The notes below the pieces were generated by a model. The model saw only the letters and a program-made list of their open reading frames with translations. It searched no databases and had not been told where the DNA came from. From Natronorubrum halalkaliphilum (GTDB lineage Archaea > Halobacteriota > Halobacteria > Halobacteriales > Natrialbaceae), in contig NZ_WUYX01000013.1 of the NCBI RefSeq assembly GCF_009834785.1, positions 97,820 through 148,367 on the forward strand: a DNA stretch of 50,548 bases, given 5' to 3'. Position 1 is the first letter of the stretch, and each line of letters opens with the position of its first letter. This document shows, piece by piece, positions 9,582 to 50,463 of this stretch. The position numbers and the translations under genes are program-made.

Positions 9582-9591
9582 GTGTCGACAC
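9582..9591. promoter_or_regulatory. 10-bp palindrome in a promoter
   Basis: GTGTCGACAC, a perfect palindrome, lies just before AATTATG and about 30 bp before the ATG at 9624. It could be an autoregulatory operator; this is a guess from position. Confidence 0.2.
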
Positions 9592-9623
9592 AATTATGTT
9601 CGCGTCACTGGAAAGGGCGAAAT

Positions 9624-11885
9624 ATGAGTCTCGAGGAGCCCGACTCGACGGTGCTCTCGCGCGAACAGTACGAGTCGCTCCTCGACGCCGCCGAAACGTA
9701 TCGTGAGGCGCTCGTCGTCCGGCTCTGCGGTGACGTCGGGCTCCGTCCGACGGAGCTCACCGCGCTCACGATCGACGACGTCGAACAGGTCCGGATCGAT
9801 CCGCCGCGATATCTGATTCGGGTGCCGGCCGTCGGCGACGGGGACGGCAGAACGGCGTACCTGCCGACACGAATCGAGCGGGAACTGCGGCGATACGCGC
9901 GGAGCAACGGACTGTCGCCCGACGACCGGATCTTTTCCGTTACCGCGCGACGCCTCCAGATGCTGGTGTCGGACGTCGCCGACCGGGCCGGCGACCTGTT
10001 CGACCAGCCAGCGCTTACCGACGCATCCACGAGCGATCTGCGGCAGTATTTCGCCCGGCGGGCGCTCGTCGACCACGCGGTCAACCCTCGAGTCGTCAAG
10101 GCCGCCGGCGGCTGGCGGAGTTTCGAAGCGCTCGAGCCGTACCTGCCCGAGCCGGCGGACGCGGAGATCGTCGACGCCTTCGACGCGCTCGAACGAGCGA
10201 CGGGAGCCGGGCACGGGCATGGACACGGACAGCGTCGCGGTCGCTCGGGAACACAGCCCGGCTCGGCCGTGAGCGACGACAGCGTGGTCCGCCTGCTCCT
10301 CGCCGCGAGCGACCGATACGCCCTCATCCGCCTCGACGCCGACGGCTACGTCGAGCGCTGGAACCGAAGCGCGGCGTCGATGTTCGGCTACCGAGCCGGC
10401 GAAATCGTCGGCACGCACGTCTCGACGTTCTACACGGACGAGGCCGTCGACGATGGCGTCCCCGAGCGGACGTTAGCGGCGAGCCTGGAGGAGTCCGGTT
10501 ACGAGGACGACGGCTGGCGCGTTCACGAGGACGGGTCGCGATTTCGGGCGACCGAGGTCATCTCCCCGCTGCGGGACGATCAGGGACGCCACCGCGGCTT
10601 CGCCGTCTTCGTCCGCGACGTCTCGGCGTCCCACGACGAACTCGAGTCCGTCCGGTCGCGCCGCGACGAACTCGAGCGACGGGATGCCGTCGCCCGGGCC
10701 TACCGATCCGTCACGCGATCGCTGTTCGAATCGACGGACCACGAGGAGATCGAGACGAAGACCTGTACCGCGCTGACCGAGGGGGAGGCCTACGCGTTCG
10801 CCTGGATCGACCGAGCGACGCTCTCGGATCGACAGCGAGCGTGGCGCGCCTCGAGCGGGATCGAACCGAGCGAGGTCGATCGACTGGTTCCGGCGGAGTG
10901 GCGAGCGGACGAACCGCCGACCGACGACGGCGACGCCGCGGTCTCGGTCGCGACCGACGTGAGCCTCCCGGTCGAACGCGGGCCCGGAGAGCGCGGCGAC
11001 CGCGAGGACGACGGCGGCGTGCTCGCACGCGTCCCGCTCGTCTACGGCGACACGGTGTACGGCACGCTCTCGGTCGCGACCGACGGCGTCTCCGATTTCG
11101 ACGCGGACGAACGCCGGTGGCTCGAGACGATCGGCCAGCAGGTCGGCTACGCGATCGCCGCGGTTCGCCGGCGCAACCTCCTGCTGTCCGACCGCGTCGT
11201 CGAACTCGAGATCGATTGCCGGGACGCCGACTCCTTCTTCGTCGACGCCGCGCGGCGACTGGGCTGTCGGTTCGAACTCGACTCGCTCGTCCCGGTTTCG
11301 GAGACGACACAGCTGTACTACCTGCGCCTCGAGGGGGCGTCGCCGGCCGACCTCTTCGATCTCGCGGCGGACGACCCCGGGATCGACGACTGCCGACTGG
11401 TCGAGACCGACGAGGACGGCTGGCGCGTCGAGTTCGTCGTCGACGGCTCCTCGCCGGCGTTGACGCTTACCGAGTACGGCGTGACCGTCCTCGAGGCCGT
11501 CACCGAGGACGGCGTGACGACGATCACGGCCGAGTGCGCCGCCGACGCCGACCTGCGGACGATCGTCGCGGGCCTTCGCTCCGCGTTCCCCGACTCCGAA
11601 CTGGTCGGAAAGCGCGAGGCCGAACGGACCGTCCAGACGGCCCGCGAGTTCCAGGAAGGCCTCGAGGACCGACTGACCGATCGCCAGGAAGCGTCGCTCC
11701 GAGCGGCCTACTTCGGCGGCTACTACGACTGGCCCCGCGAGAGCACGGCCGAGGAGATCGCCGACGCGATGGGGATCTCCTCGCCGACGTTGCACAACCA
11801 CCTCCGAAAGGGCCAACACGAACTCTTACGGACGTTCCTCGACGATCCGACCGGGAGCGGGGCCGAGGTCGCGGAACAGGACTAA
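9624..11885 (+). CDS. Bat-like sensor/transcription regulator (integrase-like, PAS, GAF, HTH-10)
   Basis: A 753-residue cytoplasmic regulator of the bacterio-opsin-activator family. Residues 1-190 look like a tyrosine-recombinase catalytic domain (GLRPTELTALTIDDV with Arg41; SDLR at 137-140; GGW at 162-164; Tyr173), but the histidine of the HxxR box is Ser, so recombinase activity is unlikely. A His/Gly-rich linker follows. Residues about 220-345 are a PAS domain (WNRSAASMFGYRAGEIVG), then a coiled linker, a GAF domain (about 360-520) and an HTH-10 DNA-binding domain near the end (ESTAEEIADAMGISSPTLHNHLRKG). The start is the ATG at 9624; an upstream ATG at 9597-9599 region gives no better signal. 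Lying between two acs genes, it probably controls acetate use; this is inference. Confidence 0.85.
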   Translation: MSLEEPDSTVLSREQYESLLDAAETYREALVVRLCGDVGLRPTELTALTIDDVEQVRIDPPRYLIRVPAVGDGDGRTAYLPTRIERELRRYARSNGLSPDDRIFSVTARRLQMLVSDVADRAGDLFDQPALTDASTSDLRQYFARRALVDHAVNPRVVKAAGGWRSFEALEPYLPEPADAEIVDAFDALERATGAGHGHGHGQRRGRSGTQPGSAVSDDSVVRLLLAASDRYALIRLDADGYVERWNRSAASMFGYRAGEIVGTHVSTFYTDEAVDDGVPERTLAASLEESGYEDDGWRVHEDGSRFRATEVISPLRDDQGRHRGFAVFVRDVSASHDELESVRSRRDELERRDAVARAYRSVTRSLFESTDHEEIETKTCTALTEGEAYAFAWIDRATLSDRQRAWRASSGIEPSEVDRLVPAEWRADEPPTDDGDAAVSVATDVSLPVERGPGERGDREDDGGVLARVPLVYGDTVYGTLSVATDGVSDFDADERRWLETIGQQVGYAIAAVRRRNLLLSDRVVELEIDCRDADSFFVDAARRLGCRFELDSLVPVSETTQLYYLRLEGASPADLFDLAADDPGIDDCRLVETDEDGWRVEFVVDGSSPALTLTEYGVTVLEAVTEDGVTTITAECAADADLRTIVAGLRSAFPDSELVGKREAERTVQTAREFQEGLEDRLTDRQEASLRAAYFGGYYDWPRESTAEEIADAMGISSPTLHNHLRKGQHELLRTFLDDPTGSGAEVAEQD

Positions 11886-46132: not shown

Positions 46133-46147
46133 CCCTTACTAGTATGG
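46133..46147 (+). promoter_or_regulatory. Bat-type upstream activator site of hop
   Basis: CCCTTACTAGTATGG agrees with the remembered Bat site of Halobacterium bop-regulon promoters (ACC-NN-ACTAGTT-N-GG) at 10 of 12 defined positions. It begins 55 bp before the hop ATG, nearly the same distance as in bop, with the TATA region around 46160-46168. Confidence 0.6.
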
Positions 46148-46187
46148 CCACATTGTCAATTCGATACGGTCGAATGTGTCGAAATAG

Positions 46188-47042
46188 ATGCAAACAATTC
46201 ACACACTAGCGACAACCACCCAGCAGATCGTTCTCCAGGCACCGGAGACGCAGGCGGAAATCTTCGAGTACGTCTTCGACGACACGCTGCTCGCGCTGTC
46301 GTTCGTGGTCAACATCGCGCTCGCAGGGTTGACGATTCTGTTTATCGTCGCGATGGGTCGGGGGGTAACGGATCCGCGAGCCAATCTCATCCTCGTCGCG
46401 ACGATGCTGATATCGGTCGTCTCGATCTCGAGCTATACGGGGCTCGCCTCCGGACTTACGATAAGTTTCATCGAGATGCCCGCGGGTCATCCGCGGGCCG
46501 GCGAAGAGGTGCTGACCATGTGGGGGCGCTATCTCACCTGGACGTTCTCGACGCCGTTTATCCTCATCGTGCTCGGGTTGATCGCGGGATCGAACCTGAC
46601 GAAGATCATGACGACTTGCGCGTTTACGATCGCGATGTGTGTGACCGGTCTGGCCGCCGCACTGACCACCTCTTCGCTGGTCATGCGCTGGTGGTGGTTC
46701 GTGATCAGTTCGCTGTTCTTCCTCGTAATCGTCTACATCATCATGGTTGACTGGACGGCCGAAGCCGAGAAGACGGGGACCGCCGACCTGTTCAACACGC
46801 TGAAAATTCTCACCGTCGTCGGCTGGTTCGGCTACCCGATCCTGTGGGGACTCGGCGTCGAGGGGATCGCCGTGCTCGACGTCGCGATCACCTCGTGGGG
46901 CTACAGTGTCCTCGACATCATCACGAAGTACATCGTCACCGGGCTGGTCGTCCTCTACGTCGCCAAGGAGCCTGAGTCGATCACCGCGGGTCTCGACTAC
47001 GGCTCGACCCGCAAGGCCGTCGCGACGACGAGTGACGACTGA
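46188..47042 (+). CDS. hop: Halorhodopsin, light-driven chloride pump
   Basis: A 284-residue seven-helix retinal protein that imports chloride in light. Helix C reads MWGRYLTWTFSTP: Arg114, Thr117 and Ser121 stand where bacteriorhodopsin has Arg82, Asp85 and Thr89, the chloride-pump pattern; the Asp96 position is Val128, where halorhodopsins I recall have Ala. Helix G has TSWGYSVLDIITKY with Asp243 and the retinal Schiff-base Lys247. The segments FIEMPAGHPRAGEEVL and FTIAMCVTGLAAALTTSS are halorhodopsin-specific. It is followed by crtY and blh, which make its retinal, and is preceded by a Bat-type site. Confidence 0.95.
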   Translation: MQTIHTLATTTQQIVLQAPETQAEIFEYVFDDTLLALSFVVNIALAGLTILFIVAMGRGVTDPRANLILVATMLISVVSISSYTGLASGLTISFIEMPAGHPRAGEEVLTMWGRYLTWTFSTPFILIVLGLIAGSNLTKIMTTCAFTIAMCVTGLAAALTTSSLVMRWWWFVISSLFFLVIVYIIMVDWTAEAEKTGTADLFNTLKILTVVGWFGYPILWGLGVEGIAVLDVAITSWGYSVLDIITKYIVTGLVVLYVAKEPESITAGLDYGSTRKAVATTSDD

Positions 47043-47084: not shown

Positions 47085-47876
47085 ATGACACCTCCGCTCA
47101 CCTACCTCGGTTTCCACCTCGTCTTCACGCTCCCGCCGATCGCCCTGCTGAGCTGGCTCGCCGTCAGACGCGAGCGGGCCCGGTGGAACTGGCAGGCGAT
47201 CTCGGGGTTCGTCGTTCTGGTCGCGCTAGCAGTGGTGTACACCACACCGTGGACGAACGCATTGATCCCAGAGGGCGTCTGGTGGTACGGCGAGGGTGCC
47301 GTTATTGCGACGGTCTGGTACACCCCCATCGAGGAGTACCTCTTTTTCGTCCTCCAGACGGCGCTTACGGCGTTCTGGCTCTTTCACCTGCTCGAGGTCG
47401 CCGACGTCTCGCTCGACCTCCCGATCAGTCACCGCGTCGTCGGCGTCCTCGCCGGCACAGCAATCTGTCTCGCCGGCTGGCTCCTGCTCGGTTCGACGTC
47501 GACGTTCTATCTCGGAGCGATTCTGGTCTGGGCCGGCCCGATCCTCGCGATCCAGTGGGGGTTCGGTCTCACCTACCTCGTCCGCGCGAGACGACAGGTG
47601 TTACTCGCGATCGCCGTTCCGACGCTATACCTGTGGTTCGCCGACTGGGTCGCGATCTCGCTCGGCATCTGGATGATCTCGGAGACGCACACGATCGGCA
47701 TCAGCGTCGCCGGTCTGCCGCTCGAGGAGATGCTGTTCTTCCTGGTGACGAACGTCTTCATCGTTCAGGGGATCGTCCTCTACGTATGGGTTATCGACCG
47801 CCTGAGCGTGCATCCGACCGGTTCACCGTTCCGATCGGTCTCGAGGCGACTCGACGGCTGGCCGCTCGATGACTGA
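47085..47876 (+). CDS. crtY: Lycopene beta-cyclase, CrtY (CarR/heterodimeric-fused type)
   Basis: A 263-residue membrane enzyme that cyclises lycopene to beta-carotene. It is the archaeal fused form of the CrtYc/CrtYd-type cyclase, with two similar halves each carrying the P-x-E-E motif: TPIEEYLFFVLQT (first half) and GLPLEEMLFFLVTN (second half). About seven helices. It starts 42 bp after hop and overlaps blh by 8 bases, so the three are one transcription unit. Confidence 0.95.
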   Translation: MTPPLTYLGFHLVFTLPPIALLSWLAVRRERARWNWQAISGFVVLVALAVVYTTPWTNALIPEGVWWYGEGAVIATVWYTPIEEYLFFVLQTALTAFWLFHLLEVADVSLDLPISHRVVGVLAGTAICLAGWLLLGSTSTFYLGAILVWAGPILAIQWGFGLTYLVRARRQVLLAIAVPTLYLWFADWVAISLGIWMISETHTIGISVAGLPLEEMLFFLVTNVFIVQGIVLYVWVIDRLSVHPTGSPFRSVSRRLDGWPLDD

Positions 47877-48942
47877 GCCGACGGCCTCGAGCGCGCCCGA
47901 GACAGAGATGACAGCCAGTGTCGCACGTCGGGTCGCCGCCCGAATCGCGCTTACCGGTGGCGTCGCGATCCTCGTCGTCGGTGTGGTCATCGCCGCCGCA
48001 GCCGACTCGATCCCGCTGTGGGCACAGCTGCTTCCGTTCGCGGCGAGCGTCCTCGTCCTCGGGTTCCCCCACGGCGCCGTCGATCACCTCGTGCTTCCCC
48101 GTGCGCGCAGTCGCCCAATCACCCCTCGCGACCTGGCGTTCGTCGGTAGCCTGTACCTGGTCGTCGGCGGCCTGTATGCGATCGTCTGGTGGCGCGCACC
48201 CGCGGCCGCGTTCGCGGCGTTCATCGCACTGACGCTCGTCCACTGGGGACAGGGCGACGTCTACGCACTCGTCGCGCTCGCGGGTGCGGACCACCTCCGA
48301 ACGCGGGCGGTCCGCGCGCTGACAGCGTTCGTTCGCGGCGGAATCCCGATGCTCGTCCCGCTGATCGCGTTTCCGGCCGAGTACGCCTTCGTCGCACAGG
48401 CGCTGGTGGGACTGTTCGATCCCGCCGCAGCGACCGCTCTCGAGCCCGCATTCACGCTCGAGGCACGCTTCGCCGTCGGCGCTTTCCTCGCGACGGCGAT
48501 ACTCGGGTCGCTCGCGTTCGGCCTTCATAGAGCCGACGACCGCGGCCCCTGGCTGCTCGATGCCGGCGAAACGCTCGGACTGGTCGCGTACTTCGCGGTC
48601 GTACCGCCGATCCTCGCCATCGGGCTGTACTTTCCGTTCTGGCATTCGCTGCGACACATCCTCCGGGCGATGCTGCTCGACGGCCAGACGAGCGGACGCC
48701 TCGCTCGGCGTTGTTTCGCTGGCGCGTTCAGCCGGTTCGCTCGCGACGCTGCGCCGCTGACCGCCGGCGCGCTGGTGCTGTTCGCCGTTCTCGCACTCGC
48801 GATACCGACGACGCCGGCGACTCCCGCCGATTTGCTCGGGCTCTATCTGGTAGGGATCGCGGTACTGACACTCCCCCACGTCGTCGTCGTTACGCTGCTC
48901 GACCGACGGATCGGACTCTGGACGCCGCGCTCGCGGTCGTGA
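47869..48942 (+). CDS. blh: Beta-carotene 15,15'-dioxygenase, Brp/Blh family
   Basis: A 357-residue multi-helix membrane enzyme that cleaves beta-carotene to two retinal molecules. The iron-ligand histidines of the family are visible in FPHGAVDHLVLP, VHWGQGD and FPFWHSLRHILRAM, plus LPHVVVVTLLD near the end. It begins with an acidic hydrophilic stretch; the ATG at 47869 overlaps the crtY end, and an internal ATG at residue 14 is an alternative. It completes the hop-crtY-blh cassette. Confidence 0.93.
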   Translation: MTEPTASSAPETEMTASVARRVAARIALTGGVAILVVGVVIAAAADSIPLWAQLLPFAASVLVLGFPHGAVDHLVLPRARSRPITPRDLAFVGSLYLVVGGLYAIVWWRAPAAAFAAFIALTLVHWGQGDVYALVALAGADHLRTRAVRALTAFVRGGIPMLVPLIAFPAEYAFVAQALVGLFDPAAATALEPAFTLEARFAVGAFLATAILGSLAFGLHRADDRGPWLLDAGETLGLVAYFAVVPPILAIGLYFPFWHSLRHILRAMLLDGQTSGRLARRCFAGAFSRFARDAAPLTAGALVLFAVLALAIPTTPATPADLLGLYLVGIAVLTLPHVVVVTLLDRRIGLWTPRSRS

Positions 48943-49217: not shown

Positions 49218-49299
49218 ATACGGTTTACTGTAAGTCATTTCCAGCGTAACCGCCGCCCGGGTCGCGGTTGCGCCGGTAAATCGTTACAGCAATCCGTAT
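49218..49299. repeat. 82-bp palindromic element, copy B (inverted)
   Basis: Same length and plan as copy A, but in the opposite orientation: ATACGGTTTACTGTA at the left and ATACGGATTGCTGTA (minus strand) at the right. The first 15-17 bases of each end are identical to copy A; the interior and the 12-bp centre (49253-49264, CCGCCCGGGTCG) have diverged. The last base is the first base of the dys stop codon on the minus strand. It lies between converging blh and dys. Confidence 0.8.
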
Positions 49300-50273
49300 C
49301 AGAGGTCGAACGCGCCCGCAACGAGCAGCGGGAAGACGAGCGTCGCCTCCGCTTCGATCTGGGTGTAGTTCGTCTCCGTGTCCTTGATCTTCCCCCACGA
49401 GACCGCTTCGTTCGGCGGCGCGCCCGACAGCGAGCCGTCCCCTTCCATCCCCGTCGAAATGTAGACGACGTAATCCGCGCCCCCGCGGAAGAGGTTCGTC
49501 ATGATCGCGTGGTGTTTCGGGACGCCGCCGCCGACCGCGATCAGACCGGTGGTATCCGCCAGCAGCCCGTCCTCGATCAACGAGTCGTAGTCGTCGAGAA
49601 TTTCGATGCCGACCTCCGAGTCGTACCCCTGCCGATAGTAGTAGAGGAAGTTCCCGACCTCGGCGTCGGTCAGCGCCGGGCAGTACACCGTCACGTCGTT
49701 GTCGGCAGCCTGTTTCAGGACCGAATCCTCGTCGTCGAGGGTCTCGCCCAACTCGCGGGCGAACGCCGTTGGCGTTCGCACCTTCTCCTCGGCGAAGAAG
49801 TCGTCGAAGAAGTCGTAGAGGTACTCCTCGAGCCAGACGTACCGGTCGGAGGGGACGAAGATGTTGCCGAGCCGGTTGATTCCGCGCTCCCGGAGTTCGG
49901 CCTCGTCCGCGTTCCACTCACCCATCTTGAACGGTTTCGCCGTTTTGATAACGTCCTCGGTCAGCGAACCGGACGTCGTGATCAGCACGTCGACGTAACC
50001 CTCGCGGATGAGGGCCGCGACGACCTCGCGCAGCCCCGACGAGATGATGTTCGAGGTGCAGGTCAGATAGATCGTCGCGTCCTCTTCTTGCATCCGCTCG
50101 GCGATGTCGATCGCCTCCGCGAGCTGTGTCGCCTGAAAGCCGGTCGTCTCGTAGGATTTAAGCAGATCCTGAAAATCGAACTCGCCGCGGAAATCGTAGC
50201 CCCGAACGTCCGCCGTCGACAGCTCCTCTTCGGTGTCAGGTACGACGTGGTCGCGGGATTCGTCTTCGCTCAT
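49299..50273 (-). CDS. dys: Deoxyhypusine synthase
   Basis: A 324-residue NAD-dependent enzyme that transfers the aminobutyl group of spermidine (or agmatine-derived equivalents in archaea) to a lysine of translation factor aIF5A. Seen: LTCTSNIISSGLREVVAALI (NAD site), TTSGSLTEDVIK, GGGVPKHH, YISTGMEGDGSLSGAPPNEAVSWGKI with the catalytic Lys295. The start is the ATG at 50273; the 28 codons upstream in frame are basic and non-coding in character. It is flanked by element copies B (3' side) and C (5' side). Confidence 0.95.
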   Translation of the reverse strand: MSEDESRDHVVPDTEEELSTADVRGYDFRGEFDFQDLLKSYETTGFQATQLAEAIDIAERMQEEDATIYLTCTSNIISSGLREVVAALIREGYVDVLITTSGSLTEDVIKTAKPFKMGEWNADEAELRERGINRLGNIFVPSDRYVWLEEYLYDFFDDFFAEEKVRTPTAFARELGETLDDEDSVLKQAADNDVTVYCPALTDAEVGNFLYYYRQGYDSEVGIEILDDYDSLIEDGLLADTTGLIAVGGGVPKHHAIMTNLFRGGADYVVYISTGMEGDGSLSGAPPNEAVSWGKIKDTETNYTQIEAEATLVFPLLVAGAFDL

Positions 50274-50355
50274 ATACATAGATACGCGGGACGCGTTTTG
50301 AATGGCTCGTGATCGATCCCGAGTCTGAGCTGCGTTACCAAACGTACAGTGACTC

Positions 50356-50437
50356 ATACGGATTGCTGTAACTATGTACCGCCGATCACCGACCCCGTCC
50401 CTGGTGATCGACGGTCATTGACTACAGTAAACCGTAT
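50356..50437. repeat. 82-bp palindromic element, copy C
   Basis: Same orientation as copy A. The left 35-bp arm is identical to copy A and the right arm differs at one base (50411). The 12-bp centre (50391-50402, GACCCCGTCCCT) is the exact reverse complement of the centre of copy A. It lies 26 bp past the stop of the truncated gene at the window end and 82 bp upstream of the dys start. Confidence 0.85.
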
Positions 50438-50463
50438 CAGTAGCCGCGACGATCCCGACGGCG

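Follow-up and report, generated by a model that had tools for sequence, protein, structure and literature searches.

Within the window, by which we mean the entire stretch of 50,548 nucleotides analysed here (G000:C22:97820-148367, from a genome of 4.56 Mb in 72 contigs), a cassette of three plus-strand genes lies divergent from gatB. It begins with hop (46188..47042), which encodes a halorhodopsin-type rhodopsin of 284 aa (PF01036, E 2.5e-45), continues with the lycopene cyclase gene crtY (47085..47876; 263 aa; PF18916, E 6.4e-06, 27.1 bits at a cut-off of 27), which is conserved after hop in relatives, and ends with a blh/brp-type gene for a beta-carotene 15,15'-dioxygenase of 357 aa (47869..48942; PF15461, E 4.1e-80) that overlaps crtY by 8 bp. 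Upstream of hop, on the same strand, stands the 15-base site CCCTTACTAGTATGG (46133-46147), whose inner 14 bases (46134..46147) form the dyad CCTTACTAGTATGG, composed of the half-sites CCnnAC and GTnnGG and matching the pattern CCnnACnnGTnnGG at 8/8 positions; its first base lies 54 bp from the hop ATG (46188). It is followed on the plus strand by a weak TATA-like stretch, TGTCAATT (46154..46161), in register with a TTYA/TTTA element that relatives carry 8-12 bp after the box, and by CGAA (46171..46174), a possible -10-type promoter element that by eye matches the relatives' C-n-AA columns 39-42 with a shift of one position. A location just upstream of a TATA-like element and about 50 bp before the start codon is the placement of the bop UAS, and the statement of the initial annotation that the site stands at the same distance from the start codon as in bop holds to 1 bp, the bop box of the Halobacterium-like locus L142 being found at 53 bp.

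The hexamer ACTAGT occurs once in the window, against 3.1 copies expected by chance, so that the hexamer by itself is no evidence, and we rejected it as a stand-alone argument. Longer versions of the site are more informative: CCNNACTAGTNNGG has two exact copies in the 4.56 Mb genome, one of which is the site before hop, CCNNACNNGTNNGG occurs 88 times per strand versus 37 for the same pattern read backwards, and CCNWACNNGTWNGG occurs 15 times versus 7 for its control, an approximately twofold excess. Of the other 14 CCNWACNNGTWNGG sites, most are located within ORFs or precede genes without an evident link to phototrophy. Measured against ACCcnactagTTnGG, which we take to be the bop UAS consensus, the window site agrees at about 10/13 positions, where the initial annotation had given 10 of 12.

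The dyad recurs before rhodopsin genes of other genomes. In a first survey of 59 halorhodopsin loci from public genomes, 34/59 had an exact copy in the 200 bp that precede the hop match, and only 26 other exact copies occurred in the same 700 kb searched. Inclusion of further genomes yielded 193 rhodopsin promoters. Removal of redundancy, judged for hop by shared 8-mers, left 98 hop and 42 bop promoters; promoters with less than 160 bp of upstream sequence were dropped before counting, and the labels hop and bop follow whichever query scored higher. A perfect dyad was found within 200 bp upstream in 41/98 hop promoters versus 0.42 after shuffling, with six rearranged control dyads scoring 0-2 in the same 98 promoters, and in 7/42 bop promoters versus 0.17 after shuffling; 14 more of the 42 bop promoters carried a 7/8 box, where 3.4 were expected. 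A motif-blind enumeration of gapped eight-base words in 25 gapped layouts returned CCnnACnnGTnnGG as the top word in both sets (41/98 hop, 7/42 bop), the next best hop word being present in 19 promoters; for the far region the top word was CG-rich (24/97). The site noted before hop is therefore real, a perfect dyad conserved before hop in many relatives, and its reading as a Bat-type site is well supported.

The 41 boxed hop promoters also share a common anatomy. Counted from the first box base, an in-frame start is reached after 52-59 bp in all 41, and after 54-59 bp in 40/41; the corresponding distance is 52-56 bp in 7/7 perfect-box bop promoters. At box positions 3-4 and 11-12, 85-95% of the hop boxes have A or T. 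Between 8 and 12 bp beyond the box comes a second element, TTTA, TTCA or similar, with T at column 23 in 98% and A or T at column 25 throughout (100%); it would represent the TATA position, given a transcript start at or near the ATG. A third cluster, about 15 bp before the ATG, has C in column 39 in 76% and A in columns 41-42.

A perfect box was absent from 57/98 non-redundant hop promoters. No box was seen in the three Halobacterium-like hop promoters (L173-L175), in Haloarcula-like hop promoters, at hop of the bop-hop-crtY-blh clade or in three Halonotius loci (L055, L056, L058) in which a Bat gene adjoins hop; the labels 'Halobacterium-like' and 'Haloarcula-like' were assigned from bacteriorhodopsin identity and context. 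As the box is missing from hop of several clades, attachment of the element to hop is lineage-specific. Seven of the box-less hop promoters (L012, L014-L016, L018, L023, L037) carry a recurring element of the approximate form TCCGnnTCGGGaCGGA before TTTATG, about 40-55 bp before hop, which may represent the site of a different regulator or a core element there.

The same dyad stands before further genes of rhodopsin and carotenoid synthesis. In the Halobacterium-like locus L142 it precedes bop as CCATACTGATTGGG (7/8, 53 bp before the ATG) and crtB1 as CCAAACTGGTGGGG (8/8), with bat and brp located between the two, and in other genera bop has a perfect box as well (L220, L221, L225, L226, L227, L231). 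The window site has 8/8 positions of the dyad common to the bop, crtB1 and crtY boxes. Among 22 loci with a crtY match, 17 have hop directly followed by crtY, and these bear on the point, raised by the initial annotation, that absence of the site in relatives with the same cassette would speak against its claim: a perfect box stands at hop in 7, at crtY instead in 8, and at neither gene in 2 (L020, with a 7/8 box at crtY, and L023), so that conservation at hop itself was confirmed for a part of the relatives only. The eight crtY boxes lie 90-102 bp before crtY, in a clade whose hop is preceded by a second rhodopsin gene. In 17/59 loci a Bat-type gene is found no more than 6 kb from hop. Boxes also stand before several other genes: an SRPBCC (polyketide-cyclase-like) gene that adjoins bat in L003, L005 and L024 (domain-scanned in L005, named from sequence only in L024), a phytoene-desaturase-like gene in L049 (likewise named from sequence only), and short HTH_10 regulator genes near hop in L034 and L049, of which the former has a DmsR_N domain and the latter owes its name to sequence only.

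Besides hop, crtB on contig C45 is the only carotenoid gene of the own genome for which a candidate box was found; there CCCGCCTAGTAAGG (7/8) is followed by GATAGC-TATTTTATA, 83 bp before the ATG. For comparison, 30 crtB loci were fetched of 64 listed matches in 61 genomes of the family. In these 30 Natrialbaceae loci, boxes within 150 bp upstream were perfect in 18/30 and scored 7/8 in 6/30, the common form in the family being CCCYACTAGTGAGGG..TATTTTATA. A Bat paralogue of the type encoded on C45 adjoins crtB in 21/30 loci and is absent from 9/30, four of which still have an 8/8 box (L251, L256, L260, L263); across the 30 loci, box score did not clearly track the presence of the adjacent paralogue. 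The crtB box is also present in genomes without hop, such as G211, and is thus independent of halorhodopsin. Elsewhere in the own genome, no exact box was found at the Bat gene on contig C6, the match to a blp-like gene was only 21% identical, and the sites listed for contig C40 include no exact dyad near the two other rhodopsin-type genes. These latter genes lie close together (G000:C40:58095-61338), beside methyl-accepting transducer-like genes.

On the basis of its presence before hop, bop, crtB1, crtY-blh, a bat-side gene and crtB, we infer that the site before hop is an element of the Bat-UAS type; membership of hop-crtY-blh in a Bat-type regulon is very likely here. The passages of PMC1885257 and PMC3184054 considered here describe light and low oxygen as the conditions under which Bat induces bop, and the reported Halobacterium Bat regulon, according to the relevant passages of PMC1885257 and PMC1447603, comprises bop, brp, bat and crtB1; these passages on the regulon contain no statement that hop belongs to it. 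Literature searches, whose scope did not extend to Baliga and DasSarma 1999, 2000 and Baliga et al. 2001, returned no published hop box. The window site resembles the Halobacterium Bat UAS in dyad frame, start spacing (53 versus 54 bp), weak TATA and association with rhodopsin and retinal-synthesis genes. It differs in driving, by our reading, a chloride pump together with crtY-blh, in being a perfect dyad whereas the Halobacterium-like bop box is 7/8, in standing before hop, which has no box in Halobacterium-like genomes, and in a cassette that is devoid of a bat gene. The Bat UAS, known from the Halobacterium bop regulon, is seen here in a sharper, two-fold symmetric form: at hop in many genera, at crtY in loci whose hop is without it, and at crtB beside a Bat paralogue in most Natrialbaceae loci examined.

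As to the protein that would bind the dyad, the own genome has 25 matches to a hop-linked Bat. In an unrooted tree of 33 rows, from which 7 short or duplicate rows were left out, the protein from C6, 665 aa long, and the Bat of Halobacterium-like L142 are sisters (support 99/97), which makes the former the Bat orthologue of this genome. The protein that the initial annotation had put forward as a candidate (regulator at 9624, encoded at 9582..11885 on the plus strand) is an HTH_10/BAT paralogue with an integrase-like N-terminus; it falls inside a group of 11 own paralogues (99/98) and is 28% identical to the Halobacterium-like Bat. The C45 paralogue is the first branch on the paralogue side, just outside this group (98/97). 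PAS, GAF, BAT and HTH_10 domains were detected among the five proteins scanned, the integrase-like domain only in the 9582 protein, with the order integrase-PAS-GAF-BAT-HTH_10. In a stretch of 15 residues from the second HTH helix, compared by eye with the hop-linked Bat of L005, identities amounted to 13 for the C45 paralogue (RSTFHQHLRTAERKL versus RQTFHQHLRAAERKL in the hop-linked Bat), 11 for the C6 protein, 9 for the Halobacterium-like Bat and 6 for the 9582 protein. The C6-type Bat occurs at 605 bits or more in 45/61 family genomes, and 18 of these 45 carriers are without hop; it is a core gene, and we rejected the notion of a rhodopsin-specific regulator for it. HTH likeness, the place beside crtB and this lack of rhodopsin specificity lead us to rank the C45 paralogue first, as a candidate regulator with a little less than an even chance, although its position on the paralogue side of the tree speaks against it, and the C6 orthologue second, as a possible but rather less probable one. 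For the 9582 protein the candidacy did not survive: it groups with distant paralogues and its HTH is unlike those of hop-linked Bats, making it a highly improbable regulator of the cassette. Its gene adjoins one that, from sequence only, would be named acetyl-CoA-synthetase-like.

A side observation concerns the LOV/PAS motif of these proteins. Photoactive LOV domains have the motif GXNCRFLQG. Many hop-linked Bats (Bat genes within 6 kb of hop: L003, L005, L031, L039, L055-L058) read GRNPR(F/L)LQG in the LOV/PAS motif and have thus often lost the photoactive cysteine; the motif is GANHRFLQG in the Halobacterium-like Bat and GRNCRFLQG in the own C6 Bat.

Several other explanations of the dyad have to be weighed. 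Another HTH_10 protein, one of the DmsR/NarO kind that responds to oxygen only, could recognise it, in which case hop would answer anoxia and not light. A motif reported before denitrification genes, CGAAYATDKTYG, for which Bat-like HTH_10 proteins are suspected in the part of PMC11218638 drawn on here, is in register with CnnACnnGTnnG. L034 (with DmsR_N) and L049 have short HTH_10 genes near hop that are preceded by boxes of their own, and a DmsR-like gene is found near the C6 Bat gene in L233. The two kinds of site share an ACnnGT-like core, the register and HTH_10 regulators, but the flanks are GA/TC in the denitrification motif and mostly A/T pairs here, and the genes behind that motif serve anaerobic respiration. 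By eye the window site agrees with CGAAYATDKTYG at 7/12 positions and has TT/AT where the discriminating places of that motif have GA/TC, for which reason we rejected its assignment as a NarO-type denitrification motif; in addition, the same dyad form precedes bop and crtB1. We therefore regard control by a DmsR/NarO-type protein as improbable. The common register of CGAAYATDKTYG and CnnACnnGTnnG nevertheless suggests a shared frame for the sites of the HTH_10 regulator family. Two dyads resembling the denitrification motif, CCGAACACGTTCGG and CCGAACGGGTTCGG, are present about 490 bp apart on contig C44 (96102-96115 and 96591-96604; L104, L105), where they adjoin ThiS-like and radical-SAM genes.

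The dyad lies right beside the TATA position, which would also suit a BRE-like core element of strong haloarchaeal promoters, with no regulator involved. Such an element would not be expected to show two-fold symmetry, to be as rare as the dyad is (88 per strand, and two copies of CCNNACTAGTNNGG, in 4.56 Mb) or to be missing from hop of other clades, and we give this explanation very little weight. Hardly more credit, if anything a shade less, is due to a repressor operator: palindromes close to promoters are compatible with either role, but the dyad lies upstream of TATA and start and not over them, and the site of the same type at bop is reported, in the passages of PMC1885257 and PMC1447603 at hand, as an upstream activator sequence. 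A chance match, for which the lack of enrichment of ACTAGT alone might be cited, is practically negligible in view of the fixed spacing and of 41/98 hop promoters with the dyad versus 0.42 after shuffling, and was rejected.

Taken as a whole, the best explanation, in which we have good though not full confidence, would be that a Bat-family activator (HTH_10) recognises the 14-bp dyad and drives hop-crtY-blh. The activator would bind the dyad, presumably as a dimer, just upstream of the weak TATA, and activation would yield a hop-crtY-blh transcript with a short leader or none, which would bring on the chloride pump and the final steps of retinal synthesis at the same time; crtB would be co-regulated via its own 7/8 box, and light and low oxygen are the putative signals. 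More tentatively, haloarchaeal HTH_10 regulators might use one dyad frame, CnnACnnGTnnG, in which pairs 3-4 and their mirror images set apart the rhodopsin/carotenoid regulon from that of anaerobic respiration, and a crtB-side regulator might have taken over the halorhodopsin operon here, so that a single box would tie pump synthesis to chromophore supply; we consider this possible, not probable. The distribution of the dyad makes the regulation of haloarchaeal phototrophy testable, and the dyad can serve as bait in assigning part of the numerous orphan regulators that resemble Bat.

Another observation in the window, at 49271-49302, 50353-50384 and 50409-50440, is that of short stretches flanked by the repeat ends CATACGGATTGCTGTAA and TACAGTAAACCGTATCA. 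Similar ends occur near a rhodopsin gene on C40 (L061), and the repeats look like a small repeated MITE-like element.
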